The position numbers and the translations under genes are program-made. This document shows, piece by piece, positions 30,335 to 45,094 of a DNA stretch of 64,000 bases. The notes below the pieces were generated by a model. It had not been told where the DNA came from. It did not search any database and worked only from the letters and a program-made list of their open reading frames with translations. This DNA is from Longimycelium tulufanense (GTDB lineage: Bacteria > Actinomycetota > Actinomycetes > Mycobacteriales > Pseudonocardiaceae): positions 102,867 to 166,866 of the forward strand of contig NZ_BMMK01000013.1 of assembly GCF_014645795.1 (NCBI RefSeq), written 5' to 3'. Position 1 is the first letter of the stretch. Every line of letters starts with the position of its first letter.

Positions 30335-31237
30335 TCAGACCCAGTAGGAGACGCGGGAACGGTAATTCCGCAGGAAGATCAGTGCCAGAGCCCATCCCAC
30401 CACGGTGATGCCGCCGACCACGATCCAGTGCCGGGGCTCCACGGGCTGACCTAGCAGGGGGTCGCGCACGACGGCCACGTAGTGCAGGAACGGGTTCAAC
30501 TCGGCGTACTGCGCCCGGGGCGTGTTCGCGAGCAGCGCGTTGTCGTACTTCCAGACGATCGGCGTCATGAAGAACAACAACTGGGTGATGCTGCTGATGA
30601 TCGGTGGGATGTCGCGGAACCGTGTCGCGATGATGCCCACCAGCAGCGCCACCCACACGCCGTTGAGGGCCACCAGCATCAGCCCCGGGATGGCGAGCAG
30701 CGTGGCCAGCCCGAGCGGGTGCGGGAAGACCACCATCAGCACGACGTAGACCAGCAGGTTGTGCGCGAAGAACAGAGACTGTCGCCACACCATGCGGTAG
30801 ATGTGCACGCTCAGCGGTGCGGGCAGATGCTTGATCAGGCCCTCGTTGGTGATGAAGACCTCGGTGCCCTCGTTGATGCAACCCGCGATGAAGTTCCAGA
30901 CGATCAACCCGACCGCAACGTAGGGCAGAAACTCCGGGACCTCGGTTTTGAAGAGCGTGGAGTACAGGATGCCCAGTGCGACCGCGGTCATGGCGGTGCT
31001 CAGGGTGATCCAGAGCGGACCGATCACCGAGCGGCGGTACCGCTGCTTGATGTCCTGGAAGCCGAGGTGACCCCAGAGCGGGCGCTGGCGCCAGCCCTGG
31101 GCGAGGTCCTGGAACGCCCGCCGGAAGCTGCGGGACGGTGCGTGGGGCAGCGTGGGTGGCTGCTCGACCGTGCTGGGAGCTTGCACGGTAGCCGAGGGTA
31201 CCGGCGGGTCCGTGCTGGTCTTGCGGCGGTCTGTCAC
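30335..31237 (-). CDS. wzm: Polysaccharide export ABC transporter permease, Wzm type
   Basis: A 300-residue ABC-2 type permease with six hydrophobic helices and the conserved FQDIKQRYRRSVIGPLW amphipathic start. It ends with a helix and NYRSRVSYWV. The first 55 residues are Pro/Ser/Thr-rich and cytoplasmic. GTG 31237 overlaps the methyltransferase stop (GTGA), placing it in the same operon. Partner of the Wzt ATPase in exporting lipid-linked galactan. Confidence 0.9.
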   Translation of the reverse strand: MTDRRKTSTDPPVPSATVQAPSTVEQPPTLPHAPSRSFRRAFQDLAQGWRQRPLWGHLGFQDIKQRYRRSVIGPLWITLSTAMTAVALGILYSTLFKTEVPEFLPYVAVGLIVWNFIAGCINEGTEVFITNEGLIKHLPAPLSVHIYRMVWRQSLFFAHNLLVYVVLMVVFPHPLGLATLLAIPGLMLVALNGVWVALLVGIIATRFRDIPPIISSITQLLFFMTPIVWKYDNALLANTPRAQYAELNPFLHYVAVVRDPLLGQPVEPRHWIVVGGITVVGWALALIFLRNYRSRVSYWV

Positions 31238-32091
31238 GTTCCGGTCACGCGCACGACGACTTGCTCGTTGTCGATCGTGTACGCCTCGTACTTGAAACGG
31301 ACACCGGTCTTGGCGACGTACTCCTGCCACGCCCGGTACTCGTGGCACTGCCAGCCCGGGTAGTTGAAGAACTCGTCGAAGACGATGACGCTGCCCGGCT
31401 GCAGGCGGGGCCCGACCTGCTCCAGCACGGTCCTGGTCGACGAGTACAGGTCGGCGTCGACGTGCAGGAACGCCACCGGGCCCTGGTGCTCGGCCAGGAA
31501 GGCGGGCAGGGTGTCGTCGAACCAGCCCACCACCAGCTCGGCGCCGGGCACGTCGGGGAGCCCGTCCACGGTGAACATGCCGGCCGGGAACCCGGACCGC
31601 CAGCCCTCGGGCAGGCCCTGGAACGAGTCGAACCCGTAGACCTCCTTGCCCTCCCGGGCCTGGGCGATGATCTTGAGCGTGGTCCCGGTGTAGACGCCGA
31701 ACTCCAGCGCCATGCCTGCCTGCTCGTCGGCCAGTGACAGGGCGTAGTCGAGGGTGGCGTGCGGGTGCGGGAAGTGCGGCACCGGCCCCATCCGCTCCCG
31801 AACGAGCCGGGCGCTCTCGGTGGCGGCCTCCCTCTCGCCCGCGTACAGCAGGTCCCGCCGGGCGCGGATCTCGAACTCCTTGACCGCCTGGATCACCCGT
31901 TCGACCTCGCGGTGAACCTCCGCACGCAGCTCGCGAAGCTCAGCCAGCTGGCCGTTCAGCTCGTCCATCTGCTGCCGGTGGTAGCGGGCAACCACATCGT
32001 CCACCGCACGCATGAGCTTCGCCCGGAGTATCTCGCGGGCCCGGTTCAGCGCCTCGTGGAGCACGTCGAGGTCCTTTCGCCGCGTGACCAC
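31234..32091 (-). CDS. TylF/macrocin O-methyltransferase-like protein
   Basis: About 285 residues. The C-terminal two thirds is a class I SAM methyltransferase of the TylF family: ALEFGVYTGTTLKIIA (SAM motif I), VYGFDSFQGLPEGW, and FLHVDADLYSST with the metal-binding Asp residues. The N-terminal third is a predicted coiled coil (QQMDELNGQLAELRELRAE). Start GTG 32091 is the first sensible one. It heads the galactan export operon and may methylate a glycan. Its start is only about 70 bp from the Zur-like box A that faces the ABC importer, so it could share that control. Confidence 0.82.
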   Translation of the reverse strand: MVTRRKDLDVLHEALNRAREILRAKLMRAVDDVVARYHRQQMDELNGQLAELRELRAEVHREVERVIQAVKEFEIRARRDLLYAGEREAATESARLVRERMGPVPHFPHPHATLDYALSLADEQAGMALEFGVYTGTTLKIIAQAREGKEVYGFDSFQGLPEGWRSGFPAGMFTVDGLPDVPGAELVVGWFDDTLPAFLAEHQGPVAFLHVDADLYSSTRTVLEQVGPRLQPGSVIVFDEFFNYPGWQCHEYRAWQEYVAKTGVRFKYEAYTIDNEQVVVRVTGT

Positions 32092-32161
32092 GTGGTCATC
32101 GTATGTGAGCCTGGTGTGATGCCCGACACTGGTCTCCTTCGGGAGCGGTGGACGAGTTAAA

Positions 32162-32176
32162 TGAAAACAGTTATCG
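32162..32176. promoter_or_regulatory. Zur-like box A
   Basis: TGAAAACAGTTATCG matches the actinobacterial Zur-box consensus TGAAAATGATTTTCA at 10 of 15 positions and is an imperfect dyad (GAAAAC/GTTATC). It is nearly the same as box B at 39028: over a 20-base window starting at GA, 16 positions agree, including a shared downstream TATTCG. It lies 50 bp upstream of the binding-protein ATG, in an AT-rich patch, and is a good place for a repressor. Confidence 0.6.
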
Positions 32177-32225
32177 TATTCGTCTGCGTCGTCCGTCCTG
32201 CCGGTCCGCCTCCTGGGGGTATCCC

Positions 32226-33212
32226 ATGCGCCTTGCGCGCGCTGCCGCCGTCCTTGCCGGTACCGCCCTGCTGGCCAGTTGCTCCAGTGCCACCTCGTCC
32301 GCCCCGCCGAACCAGTCGCCACCGAGCATCAATGTCTCGGTCGCACCGTTGGAGCCGGCCCTGCACGTCACCGACCCCCACGGCCAGGAAATCACCCTGC
32401 CCGCGGCGCCGGAGCGGATTGTCTGCCTCACTGGTCTCTGCGACGACGCCCTTGCCGAACTGGGCGTGAAACCGGCCGGCACCAGTAGCCCGACCTTGCT
32501 CACACACCCCGCGCTCCTCGGCGCCGCCGGGGCAGGGGTAGCGGTGGTGCCTGGCACCTTCGGCAGCGAGGACGTCGAGGCCGTCGCCGGCATGCGACCA
32601 GACCTGGTCATCGGCCTGGAGGGCGTGCACGACGCCCTCCGCCCCGCCATCACCAGGTTCGCGCCGCTGTGGACGGTGGGGCCGAAGGACTGGCAGGAAA
32701 GCGTCGGCTACCTCCGTGCGCTGGGTGCACTGACGGGAAGGACCCAGCAGGCCGCCGATGCCGAGCGGCGGTTCCGGCAGAAGCTGGCTGACGCGGTGCG
32801 CACCAGCCGGGAGCGGGGCCTGCGGGACCGCACGGTCCTCGTGATGTACGGCAGCGCCGACTCGATCAGCGTCGACACCGCCGACTCCCTCACCGGCCGG
32901 CTGCTCGGTGAGCTGTTCGGCTACCCCTGGCCGGCCAGGGGCACCGACGCCGACACGGCGAGCACCTACAGCGTCGAGGAGATCCTGGCCAAGCAGCCGG
33001 ACGTCGTGTTCGTCTACTCCCTGCTGTTCAGCCCCACCGACAAGAAGCTGTCCGAACAACTCGCGGACAACCCGGTGTGGGGCCAGGTGAAGGCCGTCCA
33101 ACACGGCAACGTCCACGAGACGCACGCCAAGCTGTGGGGCGCCGGTCGCGGGACCCGCAGCCTCGGCGCCATCGTCGACGAAGCACTGGACAAGGTTGCC
33201 GCCGCCCGGTGA
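32226..33212 (+). CDS. FecB/BtuF-type metallophore-binding lipoprotein
   Basis: A 328-residue ABC substrate-binding protein. The lipobox LLASC puts the lipidated Cys at 19. The fold is the helical-backbone siderophore/cobalamin class: RIVCLTGLCDDALAELGVKP, MRPDLVIGLEGVH and a C-terminal IVDEALDKVAA. There is no His/Asp-rich metal loop of the ZnuA type, so the ligand is more likely a metal chelate than a free ion. First gene of a four-gene importer operon with overlapping genes. The Zur-like box A sits in its promoter region. Confidence 0.88.
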   Translation: MRLARAAAVLAGTALLASCSSATSSAPPNQSPPSINVSVAPLEPALHVTDPHGQEITLPAAPERIVCLTGLCDDALAELGVKPAGTSSPTLLTHPALLGAAGAGVAVVPGTFGSEDVEAVAGMRPDLVIGLEGVHDALRPAITRFAPLWTVGPKDWQESVGYLRALGALTGRTQQAADAERRFRQKLADAVRTSRERGLRDRTVLVMYGSADSISVDTADSLTGRLLGELFGYPWPARGTDADTASTYSVEEILAKQPDVVFVYSLLFSPTDKKLSEQLADNPVWGQVKAVQHGNVHETHAKLWGAGRGTRSLGAIVDEALDKVAAAR

Positions 33213-34174
33213 GAGAACGGCTGCTCGTCGGCGGCGCGCTGGTGGCCGCGGCCGTGGCCACGTTGTGCGTGGGCACCCCGTTCGTGTCCCCCGTTCGCCT
33301 CGCCGACGCCCTGACCGGCTCCGGCCTGGAACACGCGTTGGTCGTGCAGGTGCGGGCCCCACGCCTCGCCCTCGGCCTGCTGGCCGGTGCGGCGCTGGGC
33401 GTGGCGGGCCTGCTGCTCCAGGAGTCGCTGCGCAACCCGTTGGCCGTCCCGGAGCTGCTGGGCGTCTCCGGCGGTGCGGCGGCGGCCGTCGGGGCCTGCG
33501 TGGTGTGGGCCCTGCCGGTTCCAGGTGCCCCGCTGGTGCCCGCCCTGGCCGGCGGTGTCACCGGCGGGCTGCTCACCCTCCTCGCCGTGCGCGGTGCCGT
33601 TGGTCCCGCCGCGGCGCTGCTGACCGGGGCGGCCGTCAGCGCGGGAATGCAGGCCCTCCTGCTCGTCGCGGTGTCCATGTCCGACTCGCGCGAGCAGGGG
33701 GTGCTGTTTCGCTACCTCCTCGGCTCCCTCACCGGCACCACCTGGTCGACGGCGGTCGCGGCCGTGCCCGGGCTCCTCGCGGCCCTGCCCTTGGCCGTGC
33801 TCGCGGTGCCCGCTCTCGGGGTACTGCGGCTCGGTGATGAGACGGCGGAGGCGGTCGGCCTGCGCGCCGGACCGGCCCGCGTCGCCGTACTGGCCATCGC
33901 GTGCGTTCTGGTGGCCGCCGTGGTGGGCCCGACGGGGCCGATCGCATGGGTGGGGCTGCTGGCACCCGCCCTGGCCCGGCGGTTCCGTTCGGACTCCCGG
34001 GCACGGCTTGGTTGGTCGGCGGCGTTCGGTGCCCTGGTCGTTGCCGTCGCCGACCTCGTCGCCCGCACGTTGCTGTACCCGGTGGAACTGCCCGTGGGCG
34101 GGCTGACCGCGGTGGTCGCGGTGGTGGTTGGGCTCGCCCTGCTGCGTCGGCGGCGCGCGGAGGCCCTGGGATGA
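33209..34174 (+). CDS. FecCD-family ABC transporter permease 1
   Basis: A 321-residue permease of the FecCD/BtuC family, with nine to ten hydrophobic segments. Family motifs: RAPRLALGLLAGAALGVAG, LQESLRNPLAVPELLGVSGG and the ATPase-contact region AEAVGLRAGPARV, then GPTGPIAWVGLLAPALARR. GTG 33209 overlaps the binding-protein stop (GTGA). It forms the transport channel with the second permease. Confidence 0.92.
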   Translation: MRERLLVGGALVAAAVATLCVGTPFVSPVRLADALTGSGLEHALVVQVRAPRLALGLLAGAALGVAGLLLQESLRNPLAVPELLGVSGGAAAAVGACVVWALPVPGAPLVPALAGGVTGGLLTLLAVRGAVGPAAALLTGAAVSAGMQALLLVAVSMSDSREQGVLFRYLLGSLTGTTWSTAVAAVPGLLAALPLAVLAVPALGVLRLGDETAEAVGLRAGPARVAVLAIACVLVAAVVGPTGPIAWVGLLAPALARRFRSDSRARLGWSAAFGALVVAVADLVARTLLYPVELPVGGLTAVVAVVVGLALLRRRRAEALG

Positions 34175-35169
34175 GGAAGCTCGCGTGGCTGCTTCTCGCG
34201 GTGGCCGCTGCCGCCCTGGCCCAACTCGTGATCGGGCCCGCGGTCGGTCCGGTGGCCTCGGTGCGGGCCCTGTTCGGTACGGCCGACGGCACGACCGCAC
34301 GGATCGTCGGTGGGCTGCGGGTCCCCCGGGTGTTGGTCGCCCTCGCCGCGGGCGCCTGTCTCGGCCTGGCCGGTGCGGTGCTCCAGGCGGTCCTCCGCAA
34401 CCCCCTGGCTGCACCGGAGGTGACCGGGGTCGGCTCCGGGGCCGTGCTCGGCGCCGTGACGGCGACCGTGTTCGGCGCGGCCGGTGCCCCGAACGTCCTT
34501 GCCGCCGCGGCGGTCGTCGGCGGCACGCTGGGCGGTGGGGTGCTGTGGCTGGTGGCGGCCCGCACCGCCGCCGAACCGGTTCGCCTCGCCGTGCTGGGGG
34601 TGGTCGTGTCGGCGGTGCTGGCCGGGCTGAGCCTGGTGTTGCTGACCGCGCGCCCGCAGCTCGCCGGGGCGGTCGCGCGCTGGCTGGTCGGCTCCCTCGC
34701 CAGCCGGACCTGGGAACACTGGCACGCGTTGTGGCCGTGGCTGATCGTGGTGATGTCCGCACTCGCGCTACTCGGCCCCGCCCTGGACCTGCTTGCGGTG
34801 GACGACGATCACGTCCGTGGCGTCGGACTGGCGGTCGGGCCGTGGCGGGTCGCAGCACTCGGGGCGGCCGTGCTCGCGGTGGCAACGGCGGTGTCGGCGG
34901 TCGGCGCGATGTCCTTCGTGGGGCTACTCGCCCCGCATGCCGCACGCCTGCTCGTTGGCGCAGAACACCGTGTGCTGCTGCCTGCAGCCGCGATGTCCGG
35001 TGCGGCGGCCGTGGCCGGTGCTGATGCGTTGGCGCAGGCGGTGAACTCGCTGGCGGGTGGTCAGCGCATGGGTGTGCCCGCGGGCGCAATCACGGCAATG
35101 GTCGGGGCCATGGTGTTGGTCGCGGTGGCGCGGCGAAGTTCGCGTTCGATCCTAAGAGGGTGTGGGTGA
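34171..35169 (+). CDS. FecCD-family ABC transporter permease 2
   Basis: A 332-residue FecCD permease paired with the preceding one. Motifs: LRVPRVLVALAAGACLGLAG, LQAVLRNPLAAPEVTGVGSG, GVGLAVGPWRVAALG and GAMSFVGLLAPHAARLLVG, which is the usual end of the family. ATG 34171 overlaps the upstream stop by 4 bases. The stop lies inside the start region of the ATPase gene. Confidence 0.92.
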   Translation: MRKLAWLLLAVAAAALAQLVIGPAVGPVASVRALFGTADGTTARIVGGLRVPRVLVALAAGACLGLAGAVLQAVLRNPLAAPEVTGVGSGAVLGAVTATVFGAAGAPNVLAAAAVVGGTLGGGVLWLVAARTAAEPVRLAVLGVVVSAVLAGLSLVLLTARPQLAGAVARWLVGSLASRTWEHWHALWPWLIVVMSALALLGPALDLLAVDDDHVRGVGLAVGPWRVAALGAAVLAVATAVSAVGAMSFVGLLAPHAARLLVGAEHRVLLPAAAMSGAAAVAGADALAQAVNSLAGGQRMGVPAGAITAMVGAMVLVAVARRSSRSILRGCG

Positions 35170-35948
35170 ACCCGGTCGAGGCGCGCGGCATATCGGTCCA
35201 CTATGGACCTCGTGTCATTCTGTCCGAAGTGGACGTCTCGGTGCGGGCGGGCGACTGGCTCGCCCTGGTGGGCCGCAACGGGTGCGGCAAGACCACCCTG
35301 CTGCGGGTGCTGGCCGGTCTGCAACGACCCCGGGCCGGCGAGGTTCGGCTGGGCGGGGATGACCTGCGCCGACTTTCCCGGCGCTCGGTGGCTCGCCGGC
35401 TGGCCGTTCTCCCGCAGGCGATGCCGGCCGTGCCCGGCCTGACCGTGCGGCAACTCGTCCGGCAGGGAAGGTATGCGGTACGTGGGCCGCTCGGGATGCT
35501 TCGTGCCGGGGACGATGAGGCCGTACGGCGGGCGCTGGCCGAGACCGGGGTCGGGGCCCATGCGGACACGCCCGTGGACCGACTCTCCGGTGGCGAGCGG
35601 CAACGGGTCCGGCTGGCGTTGGCACTGGCCCAGGACGCGCCCGTGCTGCTACTCGACGAACCCACGACCTACCTCGATGTCCGGCACCAGCTCGAGGTTC
35701 TGGACCTGGTGACCCGGCTGCGCGCCGAGCGTGGCCTGACCGTGGTCGCCGTGCTCCACGACCTCGCGCAGGCCGCGCGTTTCGCCGACCACGTACTCGC
35801 CCTCCGGGACGGCCGGGTGCACGCCGACGGACCCGCCACGGAGGTCGTGGATTCCGACCTCCTCGCTGAGGTCTTCGGTGTGCGGGGCCGCGTCTGGCAC
35901 GACTCCGTGACCGGCCGGCCCACCTGTGTCTACGACGCTGTTCTCTGA
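35160..35948 (+). CDS. FecE-type ABC transporter ATPase
   Basis: A 262-residue ABC ATPase. Walker A is GRNGCGKTT, the Q-loop is PQAMPAVPGLTV, the signature is LSGGERQRVRLAL and Walker B is VLLLDEPTTYLD, followed by the H-loop VLHDLAQAAR; these spellings are typical of siderophore and cobalamin importers. GTG 35160 (or GTG 35166) overlaps the second permease. It completes a FecBCDE-type importer. It is probably expressed from the box A promoter. Confidence 0.92.
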   Translation: MWVNPVEARGISVHYGPRVILSEVDVSVRAGDWLALVGRNGCGKTTLLRVLAGLQRPRAGEVRLGGDDLRRLSRRSVARRLAVLPQAMPAVPGLTVRQLVRQGRYAVRGPLGMLRAGDDEAVRRALAETGVGAHADTPVDRLSGGERQRVRLALALAQDAPVLLLDEPTTYLDVRHQLEVLDLVTRLRAERGLTVVAVLHDLAQAARFADHVLALRDGRVHADGPATEVVDSDLLAEVFGVRGRVWHDSVTGRPTCVYDAVL

Positions 35949-36096
35949 GGTGTGGGGATGAGCAGCAGCGCCCGTCCGCGGTGTGCCCGACCATCCGGTA
36001 CACCTCTGTGCTACTCGCGCCGTGACCCACCATCGCGGCGGGGCGGCCGGAGAGTGGCCGAAAACGTCCGCGGGTACCCGGGGCCGGGCCTCTCCT

Positions 36097-36933
36097 TCAT
36101 TCGCCCGGGGCGCGGAGCACGTCCGCCAGTGACCTCGCCGGATGGCCGGTGATGTCCGGTACGGCACTGCTCACGCCTTCCAGCTCACCGGCCGCGATCG
36201 CCGTGTAGGTCGACACCCACGCGTCGACCTGCCAGTCCGGTGCGCCGAACCCGGCACGCGAGTCGTATGCCTCCGGAACAGTTTCCGGGTAGTAGGTCGT
36301 CTTGCGCCCGGTCACCGTGGTGATGACTTCGGCAACCTCGTCCAGAGTGAGCGACTGCGGCCCGGTCAGGTCGTAGGTCGCCCCGACGTGTGTGTCGGGG
36401 GAACGCAGGACAACGCTGGCGACATCGGCGACATCGTCCAGCGCTACGGCGGCAACGCGCCCCTGCCCCGCCGGTCCCCGGATCACCCCGTCGTCGCCCC
36501 TCATCAGGGCTAGGAAGTCGGCGTACAGGTTGTCCCGCAGGAACGTGAAACGGAGTCCACTTCCCCGGATGTGCTCCTCGGTGAACCAGTGATCGCGGGC
36601 GAACGTGAAGGTCGCGGACGGGCTGGCCCCAGCGAACGACGTATAGACGAGGTGCTGGATCCCCACGGCTGCTGCGGCGTCGGCAAAGGTGCGGTGCTCC
36701 GTCATCCGTTGCGGGCTCTCGGTAGCCGACACCATGAACACCGTGTCGGCACCTTCCAGGGCACGTCGGACCGCTGCACCGTCGCCGTACTCCGCCTCGA
36801 CGGCTGTCGCACCATCGAGCTGGGGAGCGCGGGAAAGATCACGCACGACCAGCCGTTGCGGCACTCCGGCTCGGGCGAGCCGACGAGCTACCCGGCCACC
36901 CAGCCGGCCGGTGGAACCGGTCACAACAAGCAC
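36097..36933 (-). CDS. NmrA-like NAD(P)-binding oxidoreductase
   Basis: A 278-residue atypical short-chain dehydrogenase. The N-terminal Rossmann motif is TGSTGRLGGRVARRLA. DTVFMVSATESPQR and QHLVYTSFAGASPSATFTFARDH match QorB/NmrA-like quinone reductases or redox sensors. It starts at GTG 36933 and is monocistronic on the minus strand. It sits inside the accessory block between the importer and the RiPP genes but has no clear link to them. Confidence 0.85.
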   Translation of the reverse strand: MLVVTGSTGRLGGRVARRLARAGVPQRLVVRDLSRAPQLDGATAVEAEYGDGAAVRRALEGADTVFMVSATESPQRMTEHRTFADAAAAVGIQHLVYTSFAGASPSATFTFARDHWFTEEHIRGSGLRFTFLRDNLYADFLALMRGDDGVIRGPAGQGRVAAVALDDVADVASVVLRSPDTHVGATYDLTGPQSLTLDEVAEVITTVTGRKTTYYPETVPEAYDSRAGFGAPDWQVDAWVSTYTAIAAGELEGVSSAVPDITGHPARSLADVLRAPGE

Positions 36934-37617
36934 GCTCGTAAGCTAGCCAACCTCCTGCCGTCCCGCCGGTTGGGGTAACCCTGCCGAGACTTGGTGCTTC
37001 CGCTGCCGACGGAGCACCCGTGCGGGCGAGTCCCCTGATGTGCCCGGCCAGCGCGGTAACCGCGGCCAGGCAGAAGCATCGACGCGTCTCATCCACCAGC
37101 GTCAGGGGTGAGGGGCCGCAAGGGCAATGGCCGGCAGCTCCTCGTGCTGATGGGGCGTAGCCCCGACCGGCTCCCTAGCTGTCTCGGCACGCTCTTGGTT
37201 GCCTTCTCGGACACATTCGTCGATAGCGCCAATGGAAGATCGTTGGCGCCACACCCGGGCTGGCGCCGCCGCGATCGTGATCAGCCAGTAGGAGGCGACT
37301 AGGACCCCAGCAGGCAAGCAGGCAACACGTCCACCGGCAGGCCACACGGGCCCGTGGGTGCTCGCGCGGGGGCATACCCGTCGGATCCTCGACTCGTCGC
37401 CGGCCCGCCGGGTGGTACCGGTACGTCCTGGTCCCGGCGCGGCTACGTCTATCCGCCCATTGCTGGGGCCGGTCGTGCGGCCGCTCCCCGAACGTCCCCG
37501 CACCGCAGCGGATACGGCCACCCCTGTCGCTGGGTCCGGCGGTGCAAAGGTCCGCTGCGCTTACTTCCCTTGCCCCAGCGACCACGCCTTCCTACGCACA
37601 GTGGAAACCCTCGCATC
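36934..37617. other. Gene-poor region holding duplication debris
   Basis: 684 bp with no intact gene. The right part lies downstream of the MFS gene. A degenerate copy of part of the MFS gene is recognised at 37215-37330 and listed separately. Otherwise nothing supported. Confidence 0.5.
37215..37330 (-). pseudogene. Remnant of an MFS transporter gene
   Basis: On the minus strand a short frame reads GVLVASYWLITIAAAPA, close to GVLVASHWLITGAAASA of the intact MFS protein encoded at 37618-38886. At DNA level, GATCAGCCAGTAGGAGGCGA resembles GATCAGCCAGTGGGAGGCGA near 37936 and the similarity continues on both sides with small gaps. It is a fragment of about 115 bp, without start or conserved ends, and is read as debris of a second gene copy. 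Confidence 0.7.
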
Positions 37618-38886
37618 TCATCGGCCGCCGGAAGCGGTGGGGGGTGTGCGGCGCCAGTGCGCTTCTGCGCGCAGTGGGGAACACCATGCCGCCGCAACGC
37701 CCAACGCGAGCACGCCCAACGCAACACCCAGCGCGGCGTGCGGTCCGACGCTGACCGTCATGGCTCCCGCCAACATGGCACCCAGTGGTTGGCCCAGGCC
37801 CCACGCCAGCATGCGGGCGGTCGTGTTGACCCGCGACTGCAGCTCGTCAGGGGTCACCTGTTGCCGGTAGCTGACCCCGTTGATCACGACAATCGTTGCT
37901 GTCACACCCCACGCCGATGCCGCCGCTCCGGTGATCAGCCAGTGGGAGGCGACGAGCACCCCCAGCCCGCACGCGAGCGAAGCAGGCAGGGCGAGCAGGG
38001 CTAGGAGTGCCGCGCCGTACCTTCTGACCAGCGGGGGCGTCAGACGGGACGCCGCCAACGCCCCCACGCCCCAGCAGCTCATCAGCACCGCGAGCCGGGC
38101 GTCTCCGGACGGTGCTACCCCGAGCACGCGATCCGCCCAGGGCACGAGAAGTGAGATCCACGCCCCGGTTCCCACCGCGTGCGTCACCCCGACCAGGGTG
38201 AGAACACGAACCGTCCCGTGTCGCCAGAGGAACGTCAAGCCATCCCGTACATCGTGGACGACGAAACCGGACACAGTGGACCGTCGTGTGGATAGCGCAC
38301 GGGTTATTGCTCGGATCAGTAGGGCGGAGGCTACGTAGGTCACCGCGTCCACGGCAAGGAGCGCCGCCGGACTCACCACGGTGACCACCAGTCCCGCCAA
38401 GGGTGGGACGAGAAGCTCGGCCAGCGTGGTCGCACCGTAGACCGACGCGTAGGCCGTGGTGAGTCGGTCCCTACCGACGAGGGAGGGCAATGCACCGAAG
38501 TTGGCCGCGTCGAACACCACGAACAAGGACTGGACGGCAAAGGCTACGAGGACGATGTGGGGCGCCGTCACCGCATCGGCGGCCCAGGCAAGCGGGATCG
38601 TGGCGAGGAGCGCCGCGCTGACGAGATCCGCGGACACCATGAGTCGGCGACGGTCCACGTGATCCGCGAGTGCGCCCGCCACCAACCCGAACAGGAGGTA
38701 GGGCAGGGCTTCCACCACGGCGACGGCGGAGGTCCAACCGGGCGAACCAGTCAGCCGGTAGACCAGGACCGGCAGCGCAACGGCGGTGATCAGCGTGCCC
38801 GACACCGACACCACGCGCGCCAGTAGGTAACGGCGGAAGTCGGCGACGGGGCGCGTGGGTCTGGCGTGCTCCAGGGCGGTCGTCAC
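37618..38886 (-). CDS. MFS transporter, candidate exporter of the RiPP product
   Basis: A 422-residue major facilitator protein with twelve hydrophobic segments; ADHVDRRRLMVSADL is the conserved loop 2-3 motif (DR.GRR type). It resembles drug or siderophore efflux proteins. It is divergent from the RiPP operon, with Zur-like box B lying about 140 bp upstream of its ATG 38886, so it may be co-regulated. Role proposed by context: export of the mature peptide or drug-type efflux. GGAGG-type ribosome site (caggaggtg) precedes the ATG. Confidence 0.88.
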   Translation of the reverse strand: MTTALEHARPTRPVADFRRYLLARVVSVSGTLITAVALPVLVYRLTGSPGWTSAVAVVEALPYLLFGLVAGALADHVDRRRLMVSADLVSAALLATIPLAWAADAVTAPHIVLVAFAVQSLFVVFDAANFGALPSLVGRDRLTTAYASVYGATTLAELLVPPLAGLVVTVVSPAALLAVDAVTYVASALLIRAITRALSTRRSTVSGFVVHDVRDGLTFLWRHGTVRVLTLVGVTHAVGTGAWISLLVPWADRVLGVAPSGDARLAVLMSCWGVGALAASRLTPPLVRRYGAALLALLALPASLACGLGVLVASHWLITGAAASAWGVTATIVVINGVSYRQQVTPDELQSRVNTTARMLAWGLGQPLGAMLAGAMTVSVGPHAALGVALGVLALGVAAAWCSPLRAEAHWRRTPPTASGGR

Positions 38887-38908
38887 CGGACACCTCCTGT
38901 GGGTCCCA

Positions 38909-38973
38909 GAGTTCTGCGACGTCGCGTGTGCGGATCGTCGAGCGGTGCGCGCCGCCTCCGCGGTGATGTCGGA
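38909..38973 (+). pseudogene. Duplicated fragment of the leader-binding gene
   Basis: This stretch matches 39761-39832 inside the leader-binding protein gene: GAGTTCTGCGACGTCGCG against GAGTTCTACGACGTCGCG, then GATCGTCGAGCGGTGCGCGC against GATCGCCGAGCGGTGCGCGC, with one small gap between. In frame it reads EFCDVA...DRRAVRAA, the end of the predicted RRE domain. No start codon or remainder of the gene is present, so it is a scrap of a former second copy. Confidence 0.75.
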
Positions 38974-39027
38974 TCCGACGGCAGGGCCGCACCGGACCTC
39001 GTGACGCCGCCGCCATCCCAGCCTAGA

Positions 39028-39042
39028 CGAGAACGGTTGTCA
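39028..39042. promoter_or_regulatory. Zur-like box B
   Basis: CGAGAACGGTTGTCA, followed by TATTCG, is closely similar to box A (16 of 20 bases in the aligned window) and matches the Zur consensus at 10 of 15. The core GAGAAC-G-GTTGTC is a one-mismatch dyad. It lies upstream of the MFS gene on the minus strand and 460 bp upstream of the precursor gene. Confidence 0.58.
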
Positions 39043-39068
39043 TATTCGATTGGGGCCGTGTCGACCCG

Positions 39069-39245
39069 TTACCCGGAGAGGCTGCTGTTGACGTTGATCG
39101 ACCGGGGGAGTCCGACGTCGCGGTCGATCGCCGGCGCGCACAGGCCGGGGCACGGCCGTGCCCCACTCTCGGGGGAGGCCGGAGCAACGCCACTGGCCCA
39201 AAGTCGAACCAAGATCCACTGGTCACCGGTGGCGTGCAGAAACAT
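39069..39245 (-). CDS. Possible small protein between boxes B and C
   Basis: A 58-residue frame begins MFLHATGDQWILVRLWASG with AGGAG five bases ahead of the ATG. It is Pro/Gly/Ser-rich in the second half. It has no recognised relatives and its codon use is not convincing. A palindrome GGGGCACGGCCGTGCCCC (39147-39164) lies within it. It may be spurious; listed because of the good ribosome site and location. Confidence 0.3.
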   Translation of the reverse strand: MFLHATGDQWILVRLWASGVAPASPESGARPCPGLCAPAIDRDVGLPRSINVNSSLSG

Positions 39246-39426
39246 GGACGCTCCTACGCCTGTTCGATCGCTAGGTGAGCCGGGATCGAGGTCGGCGTCG
39301 ATCCGCGCTGCGCTGGTCCCGGTGCTACTCGCGTGAGGCGTGGTGCTCCCCGCCGTGTGTTGCGCCTCGCCGCGCGTTGCGTCCTCCGTGCGTTGCGTTG
39401 GCTTGAGCGAGCCTCCCATTCCTTGT

Positions 39427-39441
39427 TGGCAATGATTTTCA
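39427..39441. promoter_or_regulatory. Zur-like box C over the RiPP promoter
   Basis: TGGCAATGATTTTCA agrees with the Zur consensus TGAAAATGATTTTCA at 13 of 15 positions, the best match of the three, and contains the perfect dyad AATGA-TTT-TCATT. TTGGCA or TTGTTG could be the -35 element and TACTCC/TGGTAC the -10 element, so the box would cover the promoter spacer. The precursor ATG is 60 bp downstream. Confidence 0.68.
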
Positions 39442-39501
39442 TTTGTGGTACTCCTGGTATCCGCCGGCCGGACGGTCGGGCAACGTGGAAGGAGATTCGC
39501 C

Positions 39502-39609
39502 ATGGACAAGGTCTTTGTGCGCGTGGAGAACGAGCGCGAACTGCCGCACAACTCCGCCAGTCACAGCAACGCGCTGGTCGAGAACCCCTTCGGGGACGAC
39601 CAGGAGTGA
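39502..39609 (+). CDS. RiPP precursor peptide (azole-type), 35 residues
   Basis: A 35-residue peptide with a strong ribosome site (AAGGAG, seven bases before the ATG). Residues 1-15 are MDKVFVRVENERELP, an acidic amphipathic stretch suited to be the leader. Residues 16-23, HNSASHSN, hold three Ser and two His; the C-terminus is ALVENPFGDDQE. There is no Cys or Thr. It is the first gene of an operon encoding a leader-binding protein, a hydrolase, a YcaO and a SagB-type dehydrogenase, the enzyme set that turns Ser/Cys/Thr into azoles. Ser18, Ser20 and Ser22 would be the oxazole sites. The boundary between leader and core is inferred. Expression is probably controlled by Zur-like box C. Confidence 0.72.
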   Translation: MDKVFVRVENERELPHNSASHSNALVENPFGDDQE

Positions 39610-39682
39610 CTCGCTAGTGGTCGCCGCCCCAGCCCCGGGGCGGCGACCACCGCGTCGTCAGCGGTCCGAGAGGTGGAGGGTG

Positions 39683-40894
39683 ATGGCTCGAGAACTGGCG
39701 CCGGGCGCGGCGTTGTTCGCGGTCCCGGGGCGCGGGGACGTCCTACGCGCGCTCGACGGGGAGTTCTACGACGTCGCGTTGCCTGAGGAGGATCGCCGAG
39801 CGGTGCGCGCCGCCCTCCGTGGTGACGTCGGAGCTCACGACACGGCCTCGCCAGTGGCCGGCGACGCCGTTTCCTCGAGCGGCCAAGCCGGTCTGAGCGG
39901 TGAGGGTTCAGGCTGTGCCGCCGATGCCTCGGTTGCGCAGCGGGCTAGGAGCGCGGATCCCCCGGGTGGACAGGGCGACCGGGCTGCTGATGGTTCCGAA
40001 CGGCAGGACCCCGGTGCTGATGACCCTGTTCGGCGGGATACCAGTGTTGGTGGCCCGGATCAGCAGGCTGCCAGCGGTGCCGGTGATCCGGACCAGAAGC
40101 GGGGAGACCGGAACGATCGTCAGGTTCAGTGGGCAGACCACGCGGCCCGCGTTGCTGATGGCACGACTGGGCAGGGGAACCATCACGTAAGGCACCCGCA
40201 TCGGTCGGTGGGCCCGAACGTCAACGGATCCACCTGGGGAGCGGGTCCGGCGGAACCGTCGGCACTCACCGCATTCGCCGCTGCCGGCTACCTCGGTAGG
40301 CGGCGACACTGGCCCGAGGAGCTGGCTCGGATTGGTGTCCTCGGCGACCATCTTGCCCTCCCCGTCCTCGACGCACTGGACATCTTCGGGGCGCGCCCAC
40401 TTCTACTCCGGAAACCGTCCGAAGTGGACAACTACGAGCTTGCAGCCGTTTGCGCTGTCGCCAACGGGCCCGCGCCCGAGCACTGGCTCGACCTCGACCA
40501 CCTCCCCGGCCGCGGCATCGCCTGGCAACGCGTCAGCCGGGAAGGCCGGCACGTCGTGCTGGAACCGGTCGCCGGCCGCGCCGGCGACGTCCGGCATGGC
40601 GACGTGCGCCGGCGCCGCCTCGCAGCGGCGGGATCAGGCCACCGCCATCTGACCGCCTACTGGTCAGGCCACGACGCCATGACCGGAGACGAGCGCCCGG
40701 ATCCCGCCGAACAAGCCCTCATCGCGCACCTCACCGCACTCGACCTGCGTACCTGGGCCCTCGGGCACATGCCGCGCGGCGGCTCCCTGACCCCCGGCGC
40801 GGTGCCTCCCCCGCGCCGGGTCCGCATCCTCGACCTGGACAGTGGCGCCATCAGCGACCACCCGGTGCTTCCGGTGCCGCCTTGCGCCCCGTGA
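39683..40894 (+). CDS. RiPP leader-peptide-binding protein, ocin-ThiF-like YcaO partner
   Basis: About 403 residues. Residues 1-50 (GAALFAVPGRGDVLRALDGE, then FYDVALPEEDRRAVRAAL) look like an RRE winged-helix that binds RiPP leaders. Residues about 50-195 are low-complexity, rich in Asp, Gly, Gln and Arg, with lower third-position GC. Residues 195-403 resemble the degenerate E1/ThiF-like domain of cyclodehydratase partner proteins (IGVLGDHLALPVLDALDIFG, RPLLLRK) and end DHPVLPVPPCAP, the Cys-ending tail typical of the family, although the usual CxxC is reduced to one Cys. GGAGG precedes ATG 39683. It would present the precursor to the YcaO enzyme. Assignment is by pattern and context; direct homology should be checked. 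Confidence 0.68.
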   Translation: MARELAPGAALFAVPGRGDVLRALDGEFYDVALPEEDRRAVRAALRGDVGAHDTASPVAGDAVSSSGQAGLSGEGSGCAADASVAQRARSADPPGGQGDRAADGSERQDPGADDPVRRDTSVGGPDQQAASGAGDPDQKRGDRNDRQVQWADHAARVADGTTGQGNHHVRHPHRSVGPNVNGSTWGAGPAEPSALTAFAAAGYLGRRRHWPEELARIGVLGDHLALPVLDALDIFGARPLLLRKPSEVDNYELAAVCAVANGPAPEHWLDLDHLPGRGIAWQRVSREGRHVVLEPVAGRAGDVRHGDVRRRRLAAAGSGHRHLTAYWSGHDAMTGDERPDPAEQALIAHLTALDLRTWALGHMPRGGSLTPGAVPPPRRVRILDLDSGAISDHPVLPVPPCAP

Positions 40895-42369
40895 TCCACG
40901 TCGAGCAGCACAGGGTGCACGGGCCGGACGGCGTGCGCCTCGCCGTCACCGTCGTCCGGCCCGTGACCCCCGACCGGTTGCCCGTGCTCGTCAACCGCAC
41001 GCCCTACGGACGGCACGAACACCTCGCCGAAGCACGCGCCTGGGCGCGGCTCGGTTTCGCCTGTGTTCTCGGTGACGTGCGCGGACGATTCGACTCCACC
41101 GGCGACTTCCACCCGTATCGGTACGAAGGCGTCGACGGTGCCGCAATCCTACGATGGGTGCACGAACAGGACTTCTGCGACGGGCGGGTCATCCTGGCTG
41201 GCGCCTCGTACGGAGCTCACTGCGCAATCACGACCGCTCTGGCTGACGTCGCCCCCGTCACCGGGCTGATCCTTTCCGTCCCGGCCCTCGGCTACGGGGC
41301 AACGGCCCGGGAGCCGGGCGGAGCGGCTCGGCTCGCCTGTCGGATCGGCTGGTGGGCCGAGCACGGTGGAGCCCGACGCCCCCGCCGACCGACTCCACGA
41401 ACCACCGATCTGCTGGCCCGCGTTCCCATCCGCTCCACCATGGAATGGTTACTCGGCACGAACCCGCCGGGCTGGGATGACCTGTGGAAGGCGGGCACCA
41501 GGGATCCACTCTGGTCCGAACTGTCCAGACTGGACATTCCACTACTGCTGGTCGGTGGCGTGCACGACCCCTTCGCGCAGCAGACCCTCGAGCTGGCCAA
41601 GGTATGGAGGGGGCCGGTACGTCTCGTCCTCGGCCCCTGGGGCCACGGGCTGGACTCCGAAGCTCCCGGCCGCGCGCTCGGCGGCCGGCGGCTGGGCGCG
41701 CTCTACGCAACGTGGACTGAAGCGCTCTGCGTCGGGCGACTGACCGGGAGACGCAGCTGGATCGCGGTCGACGGCCAGGGCCAGTGGCGCCGGTGGTGGC
41801 CCGGTTCCGGAGTGGAGCGGAACACTCGGGTGACGATCGAGCAGGATTCTTTCCGCGCCGCACCGGGAGACCCGTTCCGGTCCCGACGACCGCGCGCCGA
41901 TCTCCGAAGCGACGCGGCACGCCAGGACCGTGCATTGTTCCGGACCCCGCCGCTGACCTCCGGGGAACTTCGTGGTGCGCTGGCGGCCCGGCTACGCGTC
42001 ATCGCCGATGCGGTGGACGCCGACTGGGTACTTCGAGTCTCCGCCGAGCTACCCGGTGGGGCGATGCCCCAACTCGGACACGCGATCCAACGGGTCCAGC
42101 ACGTGCCGGAGCAGCCCACCGACATCACCCTGACCGTCGGCCCGCTCGGCACGGTACTCCCCACCGGGAGCCGGCTGCGGTTCGAACTGGCCGGCCATCA
42201 CTGGCCCCGACACGCACGTAACCCGCACACCGGGGTCGACCCCGTTGACGCCGTGGATCTCCGTCCCAGCCGGCGTCGGCTCCTCGATGCCACGGTCTGG
42301 CTGCCGTGGTGGGAGCAGGGCGCCGACGCCGTTCCCGCCGCCGCTCTCATCGAGGAGGTCACCCAATGA
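40891..42369 (+). CDS. CocE/NonD (S15-type) alpha/beta hydrolase in RiPP operon
   Basis: A 492-residue serine hydrolase of the CocE/NonD/X-Pro dipeptidyl-peptidase group. Domain order is hydrolase core then the C-terminal jelly-roll. The triad is visible: Ser106 in LAGASYGAH, Asp226 in VGGVHDPF and His252 in LGPWGHG. The GDVRGRFDSTG loop is typical. GTG 40891 overlaps the stop of the preceding gene by 4 bases (GTGA) and its own stop overlaps the YcaO start, so it is firmly part of the operon. S15 enzymes cut after Pro near the N-terminus; the precursor has a single Leu-Pro before His16, so a role in leader removal is an attractive guess. Confidence 0.88.
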   Translation: MIHVEQHRVHGPDGVRLAVTVVRPVTPDRLPVLVNRTPYGRHEHLAEARAWARLGFACVLGDVRGRFDSTGDFHPYRYEGVDGAAILRWVHEQDFCDGRVILAGASYGAHCAITTALADVAPVTGLILSVPALGYGATAREPGGAARLACRIGWWAEHGGARRPRRPTPRTTDLLARVPIRSTMEWLLGTNPPGWDDLWKAGTRDPLWSELSRLDIPLLLVGGVHDPFAQQTLELAKVWRGPVRLVLGPWGHGLDSEAPGRALGGRRLGALYATWTEALCVGRLTGRRSWIAVDGQGQWRRWWPGSGVERNTRVTIEQDSFRAAPGDPFRSRRPRADLRSDAARQDRALFRTPPLTSGELRGALAARLRVIADAVDADWVLRVSAELPGGAMPQLGHAIQRVQHVPEQPTDITLTVGPLGTVLPTGSRLRFELAGHHWPRHARNPHTGVDPVDAVDLRPSRRRLLDATVWLPWWEQGADAVPAAALIEEVTQ

Positions 42370-43700
42370 CGTCCGCCCTGCCGAACAGCGCACTCGTCGA
42401 TCCCATGACCGGGATCATCCGGCGGCTGGTCGACGTCGCACCCGTTCCCGGGATGCCGCCGCGCTACCGGGGGATGACCGCCGAGGTCGCCGACGCCCGA
42501 CGCCTCGGGGCCTGGCCGGCGGACCGGGTCAGCCTCGGCACCACCTTCGGGGACGTCGACGGGGCCCGGGTTGCCGCCCTCGGCGAGGCGGTCGAGCGGT
42601 ACTGCGGCAACTGCGTGCCCACCGACCTGCGACGGGCCTCCGCCGCCGAACTGATGGCATCGGGGGAGCGCCTGCTCGGTCCCGACGACCTTCCGTTCTT
42701 CCGTGCGGACCAGTACGGGCGTCCAGGCTTCCCGTACCAACCGTTCACCACGGATTTCGAGCTGCTGTGGGCCCGCGGTGTGGAGGACGGCGAGCCGTGT
42801 TGGGTTCCCGCGTCCTGGGCCTACCTCAACTTCCATAGTGGACAACGTCGAGGTGAGCCTCGTCTGCACCATCTCAACTACGCCGGAATCGCGACCGGGG
42901 AGGGCGGGGAGGACGCGATACGGCGCGGGCTGCTGGAGCTCGTCGAACGTGACGCGTTGGAACTGTGGTGGCACCTGGGCGCACCCACCACCGGCATTCC
43001 CCTCGACGAGGTTCCGGGACTGGCGCGGGAGATGGCGGGTTCCCGGCTCAGCACCCACCTCGTCGAGCTGCCCACCGAGCATCCGGTCGCCTGCGTCGCC
43101 GCTGTCGTGGTCGACGAGGAGACCGGAATCGTCGCCGGCGGCGGAGCCGCACGGTTCGATCCGGCGGAAGCCTGCGTCAAGGCCGTGCTGGAAGCCGTGC
43201 ACACCTGGGTCTTCACGCTGGGACTGCTCGAACCCGATGGCTGGGTGTTCGCCGCCATCGAGGCCGGGATCCTCGCCGAGGGGCTCTACCTCCCGCACCG
43301 GACCGACCGCGGCTACGCCGACGACGCGGGACCGGACCTCGCGCGGATCCGCGACCTGGGGGCACAACCGCAATATTGGCTCGATCCGCGGGTGCGGCAC
43401 CGCCTCCTGCCGCGATTCACCGCACCACGGCGGATCGTCGGGCTGGACTCGCTCCCGGCCGGCGACCTGGCCGCGTTGCGCACCAGCCTGCGGCAACAGG
43501 GCTGCCGCGTGGTGAACGTCGACCTCACCACCCCGGACATCGCCGAAACCTCGCTCCGGGTGCAACGGGTGTGTGCGACCGGCCTCATACCCAACGCCCC
43601 CGCGGCATTCCGTTACCTCGGCCTGCCCCGGTGGTCCCGGGTCCGCGTCGAACGAGGATGGGACGGCGGCATCCTGCTCGACCCACCGCCGTTCCTCTGA
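42366..43700 (+). CDS. YcaO cyclodehydratase
   Basis: A 444-residue YcaO enzyme, which uses ATP to cyclise Ser, Thr or Cys side chains onto the backbone. The conserved ATP/Mg-binding acidic residues are present: GEAVERYCG (Glu74, Glu77), LLELVERDALE (Glu191, Glu194) and ACVKAVLEAVH (Glu276). The C-terminus is Pro-rich, ILLDPPPFL, similar to the PxPxP tail of azoline-forming YcaOs and suggesting azoline rather than thioamide chemistry. Its ATG overlaps the hydrolase stop (ATGA). Partner of the ocin-ThiF-like protein at 39683. Confidence 0.92.
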   Translation: MTSALPNSALVDPMTGIIRRLVDVAPVPGMPPRYRGMTAEVADARRLGAWPADRVSLGTTFGDVDGARVAALGEAVERYCGNCVPTDLRRASAAELMASGERLLGPDDLPFFRADQYGRPGFPYQPFTTDFELLWARGVEDGEPCWVPASWAYLNFHSGQRRGEPRLHHLNYAGIATGEGGEDAIRRGLLELVERDALELWWHLGAPTTGIPLDEVPGLAREMAGSRLSTHLVELPTEHPVACVAAVVVDEETGIVAGGGAARFDPAEACVKAVLEAVHTWVFTLGLLEPDGWVFAAIEAGILAEGLYLPHRTDRGYADDAGPDLARIRDLGAQPQYWLDPRVRHRLLPRFTAPRRIVGLDSLPAGDLAALRTSLRQQGCRVVNVDLTTPDIAETSLRVQRVCATGLIPNAPAAFRYLGLPRWSRVRVERGWDGGILLDPPPFL

Positions 43701-43714
43701 GCCGGACTCGTGCG

Positions 43715-45094
43715 ATGGGAGCCGTGGTGGAAGCACTACGTTCGGCTTGGTCGGGTGTTGATCCAGGCGGCACCAACCCGGCCCAGCGACCACCGGTGAG
43801 CCGGCGTTGGCCGGGGCCGGCGGTGCCGCTGACGCGATGGCCGGGTCGCGGGCTCGGCGGTTTTCTCGACCTGGCTGTGGCGGCCGATCCGCGGCGCGTG
43901 GGCGGCGGGGTACGACTGCGACGCGTGCCCTCGGCCGGCGGGCGCTATCCCGTCGACCTCCATGTGGTGAGCAATGGTGTGGCGTACCGGTACGACCCGA
44001 TCGCACATGCCCTGGCCGCACCGGTTCACGTTGAAGCGAACTTTGTTGGCGCGTGTGTGGTGCTGTCACTCGTGCCCCGGCGAACCACGTGGCGGTACGG
44101 CGCACGCTCCCTTCCGGTCGTGCTGCTTGATCTCGGGCATGCGGTGGCGTCGTTGCTGGCCGCCGCCACCGCATGCAACATCCCGGCCCACGCGGTTGTC
44201 GGAATTCCCGGCGAGCGCCTGGCCGCGCTCGCCGGACTTCCCTGGGACGCCGGAGCGGTGCGGTGGCCGGGGTGCGCCCCCGAGTACCCGCTCGCGGTTG
44301 TCCACATGCTTGTCCACAAGCCTGTGGACAGGCTGGGGATAACCGCGAGTTGTCCACAGGCCGAGCCTGGAGAACATCTGTTTCCGCTGGTAGATGGGGC
44401 CCTTCGGGAGTTGTGCACGGCGGCGGACGACAGACCTGATCGGGCGAACCTTGCTGTGGACAACCGGGCGGAGACGCTCTTGGCGAGGCGTAGTGCCGCC
44501 TGGCCACTGCGCGGCAACGTGCCCGACGAGGCGTTGCGAAGCATCCTTGCCGCGGCCCGCTCGATCTCGACGCCAGACCCACCCGCAACCGCGGGCAGTG
44601 CCGCGGCAAGCGCCACGACACCTCCCACGTTTCTGGTCGAGCAACTGCCGATCACGGCAAGCGCCGTGGGCGTCCGTGAGAGGCGGCAAGCTGCCACGGC
44701 TCACCGGCGACGTGCGGGGGAGAGGCCGTCACCTTCCGCCAGTCCCACCGGTCACCTGCGACGGGATCACGCCATCTCCACACTGCTCATCCGGCCGGAC
44801 GAGCACCGAGAACTCGCCGCGGCGCTGGCCCCGCGCTCCTGCGGTCAACCGCAGGCCACGGAGTCGGCCGCCCTTCTTCTCGTCGCGGGCACCCCGGAGC
44901 CCACTCCCCGCCAGGCTCGCCACGACCTGGTGCACGCCGGACTCGCCGTCCACCAGGCGTGGCTCGCCGCCACCCGGCTCGGCCTCCGCGCCCGGCCGGT
45001 TGGCTGCTGGATCGACGCCGTTCTGCGACTGCCCGAACGGCGACGCCTACTCCACGCCCTCGCTCTGGGACCGGCACCGATGGACCGGAGCTGA
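43715..45094 (+). CDS. SagB-type dehydrogenase, two-domain
   Basis: About 459 residues with two nitroreductase-like halves. The N-terminal half has the SagB hallmark RRVPSAGGRYPVDLHVV followed by YRYDPIAHAL. The C-terminal half shows ESAALLLVAG and a helix LVHAGLAVHQAWLAATRLGL typical of the FMN-binding fold. Such enzymes oxidise azolines to azoles with FMN. The middle (residues about 190-260) is Cys/Asp-rich and coincides with a cluster of DnaA-box sequences. ATG 43715 lies 15 bp after the YcaO stop. It ends the RiPP operon. Confidence 0.82.
   Translation: MGAVVEALRSAWSGVDPGGTNPAQRPPVSRRWPGPAVPLTRWPGRGLGGFLDLAVAADPRRVGGGVRLRRVPSAGGRYPVDLHVVSNGVAYRYDPIAHALAAPVHVEANFVGACVVLSLVPRRTTWRYGARSLPVVLLDLGHAVASLLAAATACNIPAHAVVGIPGERLAALAGLPWDAGAVRWPGCAPEYPLAVVHMLVHKPVDRLGITASCPQAEPGEHLFPLVDGALRELCTAADDRPDRANLAVDNRAETLLARRSAAWPLRGNVPDEALRSILAAARSISTPDPPATAGSAAASATTPPTFLVEQLPITASAVGVRERRQAATAHRRRAGERPSPSASPTGHLRRDHAISTLLIRPDEHRELAAALAPRSCGQPQATESAALLLVAGTPEPTPRQARHDLVHAGLAVHQAWLAATRLGLRARPVGCWIDAVLRLPERRRLLHALALGPAPMDRS
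44298..44463. repeat. Cluster of DnaA-box-like sequences inside the sagB-like gene
   Basis: Four exact TTGTCCACA motifs (44298, 44310, 44350 and, inverted, 44455-44463) plus CTGTCCACA inverted at 44323-44331 and TTATCCCCA inverted at 44335. TTGTCCACA is the DnaA-box spelling of high-GC actinobacteria. TGTCCACA and TGTGGACA at 44311-44330 form a perfect 8-bp hairpin stem. All lie within coding sequence. Confidence 0.75.

Follow-up and report, generated by a model that had tools for sequence, protein, structure and literature searches.

Methanobactin is a ribosomally made metallophore for copper, and coelibactin, a metallophore of Streptomyces, is the product of a nonribosomal peptide synthetase (NRPS). 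In S. coelicolor, the coelibactin cluster is an example of Zur-boxed metallophore biosynthesis in an actinomycete, according to the part of PMC5472717 that was available. Other metallophores belong to the ribosomally synthesized and post-translationally modified peptides (RiPPs), and, judging by the titles of two reports (PNAS 2024, ACS Chem Biol 2026), some families of these use MNIO-type enzymes. In Paracoccus, AztD, the chaperone of the AztABCD importer, binds zinc and is under Zur control (PMC6689063, available part). The system closest to the one described here is the streptamidine (ami) biosynthetic gene cluster of S. albidoflavus J1074 (BGC0002115; PMC8442711). Here we analyse a relative of that cluster in a 64,000-nucleotide (nt) stretch of the genome of Longimycelium tulufanense (contig NZ_BMMK01000013.1, positions 102,867 to 166,866), called the window below. 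Three of its promoters, those of the precursor gene amiA, of the importer genes fecBCDE and of a major facilitator superfamily (MFS) gene, carry boxes resembling the binding site of the zinc regulator Zur. We hold with moderate confidence that this streptamidine-family cluster is repressed by zinc through the three boxes and that its peptide is a secreted zincophore, recaptured by FecBCDE.

Streptamidine, published in 2021, is an amidine RiPP without azoles. Its role is unknown although the clusters are widespread, and fecBCDE-type genes occur in more than 90 of them (PMC8442711). The genes amiB, amiC, amiD, and amiE and the importer genes amiF1-F4 are all required for its production, and in the proposed order of events AmiC takes off the leader, after which the YcaO enzyme, AmiB, and AmiE form the amidine peptide (PMC8442711). 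That the importer belongs to these clusters was already known, and metal import had been proposed from it and tested (PMC8442711). The term Zur is absent from the main text of that paper. In open-literature searches covering titles and the starts of abstracts, with subscription papers outside their scope, no entry linked Zur to streptamidine or to a YcaO RiPP, or AztD to amiX, and no ribosomal zinc metallophore with YcaO chemistry was found. In their available parts, PMC11278768 deals with zincophores of the opine Cnt type and PMC13174530 mentions zinc only in a method. What is new here is that the box is conserved throughout the family and that in most sister clusters an AztD-like protein is encoded behind this box. 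Should the zincophore reading hold, the peptide would combine zinc capture with ribosomal synthesis and YcaO chemistry.

Compared with the J1074 cluster, that of the window has in common a precursor of family NF040714, amiB, amiC, amiD (encoding the YcaO enzyme), amiE, and fecBCDE (amiF1-F4). It differs in having the MFS gene in place of the ABC genes amiT1-T2, in the absence of amiX, in a predicted core of HNSASH, inferred from the published HLSATH, and in a pair of minus-strand genes separating fecBCDE from amiA. Boxes were seen in another strain of the J1074 species, NRRL B-1271 (L246), at 24.5 bits before amiA and at 20.2 bits between the amiX-like gene and fecB. Unlike the coelibactin cluster, the window encodes a ribosomal peptide with a YcaO enzyme, and no NRPS gene is among those identified in the cluster. 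The likeness to AztABCD lies in the Zur control and in a beta-propeller protein, AztD being the best structural match of the AmiX of sister clusters; the differences are a binding protein of FecB rather than ZnuA type and an AmiX that falls outside the AztD family model.

Three Zur-like boxes in the streptamidine-type cluster of the window

The initial annotation had described three Zur-like sites, at 32162, 39028, and 39427 (boxes A, B, and C), and these proved to be the three best matches in the window. Its counts of agreement with the consensus (10, 10, and 13 of 15 positions) are correct, and so is the agreement of boxes A and B at 16 of 20 bases, for the 20 bases from 32163. All three boxes deviate at a single base from TGaNAANNNTTNtCA, which forms the core of the znuA motif of actinobacteria (PMC5472717, available part); the motif quoted there comes from 17 actinobacterial genomes and has TGANAANNNTTNTCA as its core. 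A search of the 64 kb for sites at most one mismatch from TGANAANNNTTNTCA returned only A, B, and C (shuffled sequences gave a mean of 0.19, and 0 of 100 reached three). Box C is two mismatches from TGAAAATGATTTTCA, for which shuffling gave a mean of 0.04 at up to three mismatches.

An independent Zur matrix gave the same result. It was trained on 31 boxes from 29 loci at znu, cobW, and ribosomal-protein genes, all from other genomes, with no ami site and no site from the L. tulufanense genome. The training loci were picked by reading the neighbouring proteins and were later backed by family scans, except for L36 (L116), which was picked by reading alone. With this matrix, boxes C, B, and A were the top three sites of the window, and the fourth site reached 9.0 bits. 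In 20 Mb of Markov sequence with the composition of the window, sites of at least 16.8 bits were expected 0.04 times per 64 kb; three were observed, all at ami promoters.

The genes behind the boxes are those that had been named, as Pfam and NCBIfam scans confirmed for fecBCDE, the MFS gene, and the precursor and YcaO genes (Table 1). By its precursor model and gene set, the cluster is a streptamidine-family RiPP cluster, with amiB, amiC, amiD, and amiE following amiA in that order. In most sister clusters tblastn found an amiB relative at the corresponding position, and in relatives of the same family the MFS gene is likewise divergent from amiA. One part of the earlier description, the azole-type product, is not supported: the precursor matches NF040714, and the product described for that family is an amidine that contains no azoles (PMC8442711). 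The cluster does encode a SagB-like dehydrogenase.

Table 1. Boxes and genes of the cluster, with positions in the window
Feature	Position	Strand	Basis
Zur box A	32162..32176	+	TGAAAACAGTTATCG; 67 nt start-to-start upstream of fecB; 16.8 bits, third in window
fecB-like (amiF) substrate-binding lipoprotein	32229..33212	+	PF01497 84.6 bits; Cys66, Cys71
fecC-like permease	33212..34174	+	PF01032 199.8 bits
fecD-like permease	34171..35169	+	PF01032 225.9 bits
fecE-like ATPase	35166..35948	+	PF00005 117.8 bits; top NCBIfam FecE 252 bits, under cut-off 375
MFS transporter, candidate peptide exporter	37618..38886	-	PF07690 77.3 bits; EntS 90.7 bits, under cut-off 324
Zur box B	39028..39042	+	CGAGAACGGTTGTCA; upstream of MFS gene; 17.1 bits, second in window
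Zur box C	39427..39441	+	TGGCAATGATTTTCA; 75 nt start-to-start upstream of amiA; 21.5 bits, first in window
amiA precursor, 35 aa	39502..39609	+	matches streptamidine family NF040714 at 64.3 bits (cut-off 40)
amiB, 403 aa, cyclodehydratase partner by position	39683..40894	+	no Pfam/NCBIfam match
amiC, S15/CocE-type hydrolase	40891..42369	+	PF02129 131.8 bits; TIGR00976 147.4 bits
amiD, YcaO cyclodehydratase	42366..43700	+	PF02624 161.9 bits; TIGR03604 223.8 bits, cut-off 219.25
amiE, SagB/McbC-like dehydrogenase	43715..45094	+	PF00881 43.5 bits, cut-off 23.5; TIGR03605 45.8 bits, under cut-off 78.4

A methyltransferase gene of the TylF/Methyltransf_24 type (31234-32100, minus strand) is divergent from fecB, so box A may face the promoters of both genes.

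Conservation and identity of the box in related clusters

Two samples of relatives were scanned, and a promoter was counted as boxed at 14 bits or more. Species genomes were scanned with an alignment of AmiD, which gave 282 relatives; the best 80 of these were examined as set A, which is therefore not a random sample. Five of these are short stretches without amiA and were excluded from the amiA counts; the remaining 75 come from 20 genera, of which one genus name (Kitasatospora) may be wrong. Set B consists of 28 loci from 27 further genomes, two loci sharing one genome, whose third copy, at a contig end, was excluded; three of the loci duplicate loci of set A. The precursor was present in 10 of 150 relatives and in 19 of 394 genomes of the class, L. 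tulufanense being included in both counts.

All 75 amiA promoters of set A, scanned to 20 nt into the open reading frame (ORF), carried a box, compared with a mean of 0.18 and a maximum of 5 for 200 column-shuffled matrices. In set B the count was 26 of 28, or 23 of 25 without the three duplicates. As a background, 85 of 4801 other 300-nt segments of the 80 set A loci reached 14 bits, the promoters of fecB and amiX included. Boxes also preceded fecB (66 of 81 loci), amiX (64 of 69), and the MFS gene (23 of 37); the 14 MFS misses are mostly clusters of the Nocardioides/Williamsia type or unrelated MFS genes. The gene amiC, an operon-internal control, had a box in 0 of 99 loci. Two other control regions did give signals, within 250 nt of amiB in 25 of 81 loci and within 250 nt of fecC in 11 of 94. 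The amiB signals are explained by the boxes of amiA, in 20 loci by sequence and in the other 5 by further comparison; the fecC signals come in 9 loci from the box shared with fecB and in 2 (L263 and L265) from a site at another fecC-like gene. The genes behind the boxes change place: amiX may be divergent from either fecB or amiA, or may stand alone downstream of amiE, and the MFS gene is divergent from amiA or follows amiD. The box thus tracks the promoters although gene order is rearranged between families. In 41 of 73 distinct amiA promoters, it lies between a TTGnnn and a TAnnnT element 16 to 19 nt apart (shuffled flanks gave 0.8, with a maximum of 3). A box between a -35-like and a -10-like element occupies a position that would fit a repressor.

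The motif at the ami promoters is the same as the box found at znuA, znuBC, cobW, and L31 genes. In the 28 amiA genomes, L. tulufanense being one of them, the exact pattern TGANAAYNRTTNTCA occurred at 72 forward places, the ami promoters among them, whereas its reversal occurred at 6. By Pfam, the 96 ORFs flanking the 56 non-ami sites contained 13 ZnuA, 4 ABC-3, 5 ABC_tran, 5 Ribosomal_L31, 5 CobW_C, 2 L28, and 2 FUR matches, and NCBIfam matches beside these sites included type-B L31 and the AztA/AztC-type zinc transporter models. Exact TGANAAYNRTTNTCA had no match in the L. tulufanense genome itself or in six others of the 28 ami genomes; the L. tulufanense boxes are 1 or 2 bases off it. There the matrix found 19.6 bits between the divergent rpmB2 and cobW genes, which were recognized by reading, and 13.0 bits before znuA, identified by PF01297. 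Four further YcaO loci in the same genome (L001-L004, about 4 kb each) had a best site of only 6.5 bits. With up to three mismatches, TGAAAATGATTTTCA gave 24 strand-matches at 22 places in the 6.8-Mb genome, box C being tied for best, and the reversed pattern gave 4. Only 2 of the 22 places precede fitting genes by reading, box C and the rpmB2/cobW intergenic site, and most of the 21 places other than box C fall within coding frames or beside genes with no such connection, so by itself this consensus mostly reports background. A looser pattern, YGRNAAYNRYTNYCR, was dropped, as it gave 33 places against 23 for its reversed control (genome G000, forward) and did not separate the two.

It could be argued that the boxes are chance matches or the sites of another regulator. 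Single 15-bp sites can arise randomly, and scores of at least 16.8 bits are expected about 4 times per 6.8-Mb genome, so that those of boxes A and B can be reached by chance; the case for these two boxes rests on their place and on the relatives. Against these readings stand the 0.04 sites expected where three were seen at ami promoters, the 75 boxed amiA promoters, and the presence of the same motif beside ZnuA, ZnuBC, L31, and CobW genes. We consider this explanation highly improbable. Within the scope of the scan, that is, the window and the relatives, the sites score above background, and the proposal that Zur boxes link the MFS gene and the importer FecBCDE to the operon of the precursor is borne out both by their rank in the window and by their conservation.

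Besides the reachable scores of A and B, several other observations weigh against Zur control as set out here. Two of the 28 set B loci miss, at 11.2 and 7.3 bits, and fecB promoters miss in 15 of 81 loci. The boxes are partly kept by descent, there being 34 distinct sequences among the 75, the commonest of which occurs 24 times. Boxes A, B, and C of the window fail the strict -35/-10 pattern (TTGnnn / TAnnnT). Streptamidine was obtained in fermentations in multiple media (PMC8442711), from a strain of a species in which the promoters are boxed (L246), which means either that repression is not absolute or that the media were poor in zinc. The L. tulufanense genome contains four FUR-family genes, and nothing above 3.9 bits lies near its zur candidate, which adjoins an upstream ArsR/SmtB-like gene by reading (L187). 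The mycobacterial smtB-zur pair has the same order. Taking all of this together, Zur almost certainly controls the streptamidine-type family. The box at all 75 amiA promoters, one strain of the model species included, points to zinc shortage as the growth condition under which the product should be sought, and brings the question within reach of an established laboratory strain.

Some relatives are worth recording separately. In L069 (G523), amiA has an internal stop and the box is the perfect consensus TGAAAATCATTTTCA, a decayed cluster with its switch intact. L214 (Williamsia muralis NBRC 105860) and L216 (Kitasatospora arboriphila NRRL B-24581) have identical boxes at identical places, and one of them may be mislabelled. 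The distant motif-B precursors (NF040715) are less convincing. Of seven loci, three have a site of 14 bits or more no further than 40 nt from the precursor match, a fourth reaches 11.2 bits there, and three stay at or below 8.7 bits, one of these having a 14.1-bit site 191 nt away. Box-like palindromes lie 32 to 43 nt upstream of the precursor match in these relatives (L272-L278); three are CGGAAATGGTTTCCG, which has a low matrix score.

AmiX, FecB, and the peptide core

AmiX has been described as a putative oxidoreductase that is only partly conserved among the clusters (PMC8442711). In a Foldseek search with its predicted structure (pLDDT 91), the top 7 matches were all AztD, and the model has an AztD-like beta-propeller fold. 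AmiX is thus predicted to fold like this zinc chaperone. The link was absent from phmmer, profile, and NCBIfam sequence searches, and the AztD model NF038015 was not among the 10 families found at E ≤ 1 for 18 AmiX proteins. A profile-profile alignment did connect the two (probability 94, E 1.3e-7), but out of blade register. Three histidines are invariant in AmiX, His40, His84, and His184; they are candidate counterparts of the three pore histidines of zinc site 1 of AztD. On visual inspection, no signal-like N terminus was seen in 14 of the 18 AmiX proteins aligned, whose starts were chosen by a script. If the predicted fold is right, AmiX would be a second, independent pointer to zinc.

In FecB, Cys66 and Cys71 are invariant in 85 aligned sequences (the window included and duplicates kept), and the three aligned solved chains that were shown carry other residues at these positions. 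The cores of the peptide are also conserved: 75 of 75 keep Ser3, Ala4, and His6, and a further histidine stands at position 1 (66 cores) or position 2 (9 cores). The cysteine pair and the core histidines suit metal handling, short of proof.

The metal might also be another one, such as cobalt, nickel, copper, or iron, useful or dangerous at low zinc, with Zur merely the switch. The best matches of FecB are iron-chelate binding proteins, and in these genomes SBP_bac_5 genes with matches to nickel-type models are likewise found next to Zur boxes. Against this, AmiX is closest to the zinc protein AztD, and the iron box of DmdR/IdeR had 5 to 8 mismatches of 19 at its best match in each of nine sequences, the window among them. 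We regard a metal other than zinc as quite unlikely, and a role of the family in zinc acquisition as likely.

A possible zincophore and its alternatives

From the boxes, the gene set, and AmiX, we infer binding and repression by Zur at the boxes, induction by zinc starvation, export by the MFS protein, chelation, uptake by FecBCDE, and hand-over to AmiX. When zinc is present, zinc-loaded Zur would hold down the promoters of the amiA operon, of fecBCDE, and of the MFS gene; when zinc is short, the precursor, the modifying enzymes, the exporter, and the importer would be made together. AmiC would remove the leader, and the YcaO enzyme, AmiB, and AmiE would convert the core to an amidine peptide, which the MFS protein would export. 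Outside the cell the peptide may chelate zinc through its two histidines and the amidine, and FecBCDE, with the family-specific cysteine pair in FecB, would bring the zinc-peptide back. In sister clusters, the AztD-like AmiX would then receive the zinc.

Several points count against a zincophore. No binding of Zn(II) or of six other metal ions by streptamidine was detected, and the amiD mutant behaved like the wild type under metal starvation (PMC8442711). The cysteine pair of FecB could be a disulfide. No tblastn match to amiX was found in the window or, with one query, in the L. tulufanense genome (AztD model 19.5 bits). The negative results on metal binding and metal starvation also suit another explanation, in which Zur controls the cluster but zinc-starved cells use the peptide for something other than chelation: it may serve in signalling, inhibit competitors that depend on zinc, or work together with AmiX, with FecBCDE importing something else. 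No antibacterial or antifungal activity of streptamidine was found either, and its authors suggest signalling or development (PMC8442711). Such a role has to contend with the fact that FecBCDE and a transporter accompany the peptide behind the same box, that the importer genes are needed for production, and that the histidines are kept in every core. Moreover, AmiE is essential, yet streptamidine carries no oxidation, a puzzle named by the authors (PMC8442711). Because of this, the compound assayed may not be the final product, and the negative zinc test may concern an incomplete one. Redundancy with ZnuABC may also have masked a metal-starvation phenotype. All things considered, a peptide that is not a chelator seems rather unlikely to us, and for the zincophore reading we put the chances at even or slightly better. 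For the streptamidine-type clusters as a whole (the 282 stretches with an AmiD relative), it is an even question whether they are ribosomal zincophore systems with return by FecBCDE and, mostly, hand-over to AmiX.

Outside the ami clusters, the proteins encoded beside exact boxes (L124, L137, L145, L147, and others) include five SBP_bac_5 proteins of the nickel/peptide type and two phosphatases of the PhoX type, which are possible Zur targets. In L131 and L158, Zur boxes lie between divergent AMP-ligase and carrier/NRPS-like genes, assigned by reading and with AMP-binding matches in two proteins, and these loci resemble the clusters for aryl-capped zincophores in other actinobacteria. Finally, the boxes of L115, L144, and L148 adjoin MFS genes, accompanied in L115 by a binding-protein-like gene and in L144 and L148 by a conserved protein of about 280 to 300 aa; possibly they belong to another metallophore cluster.

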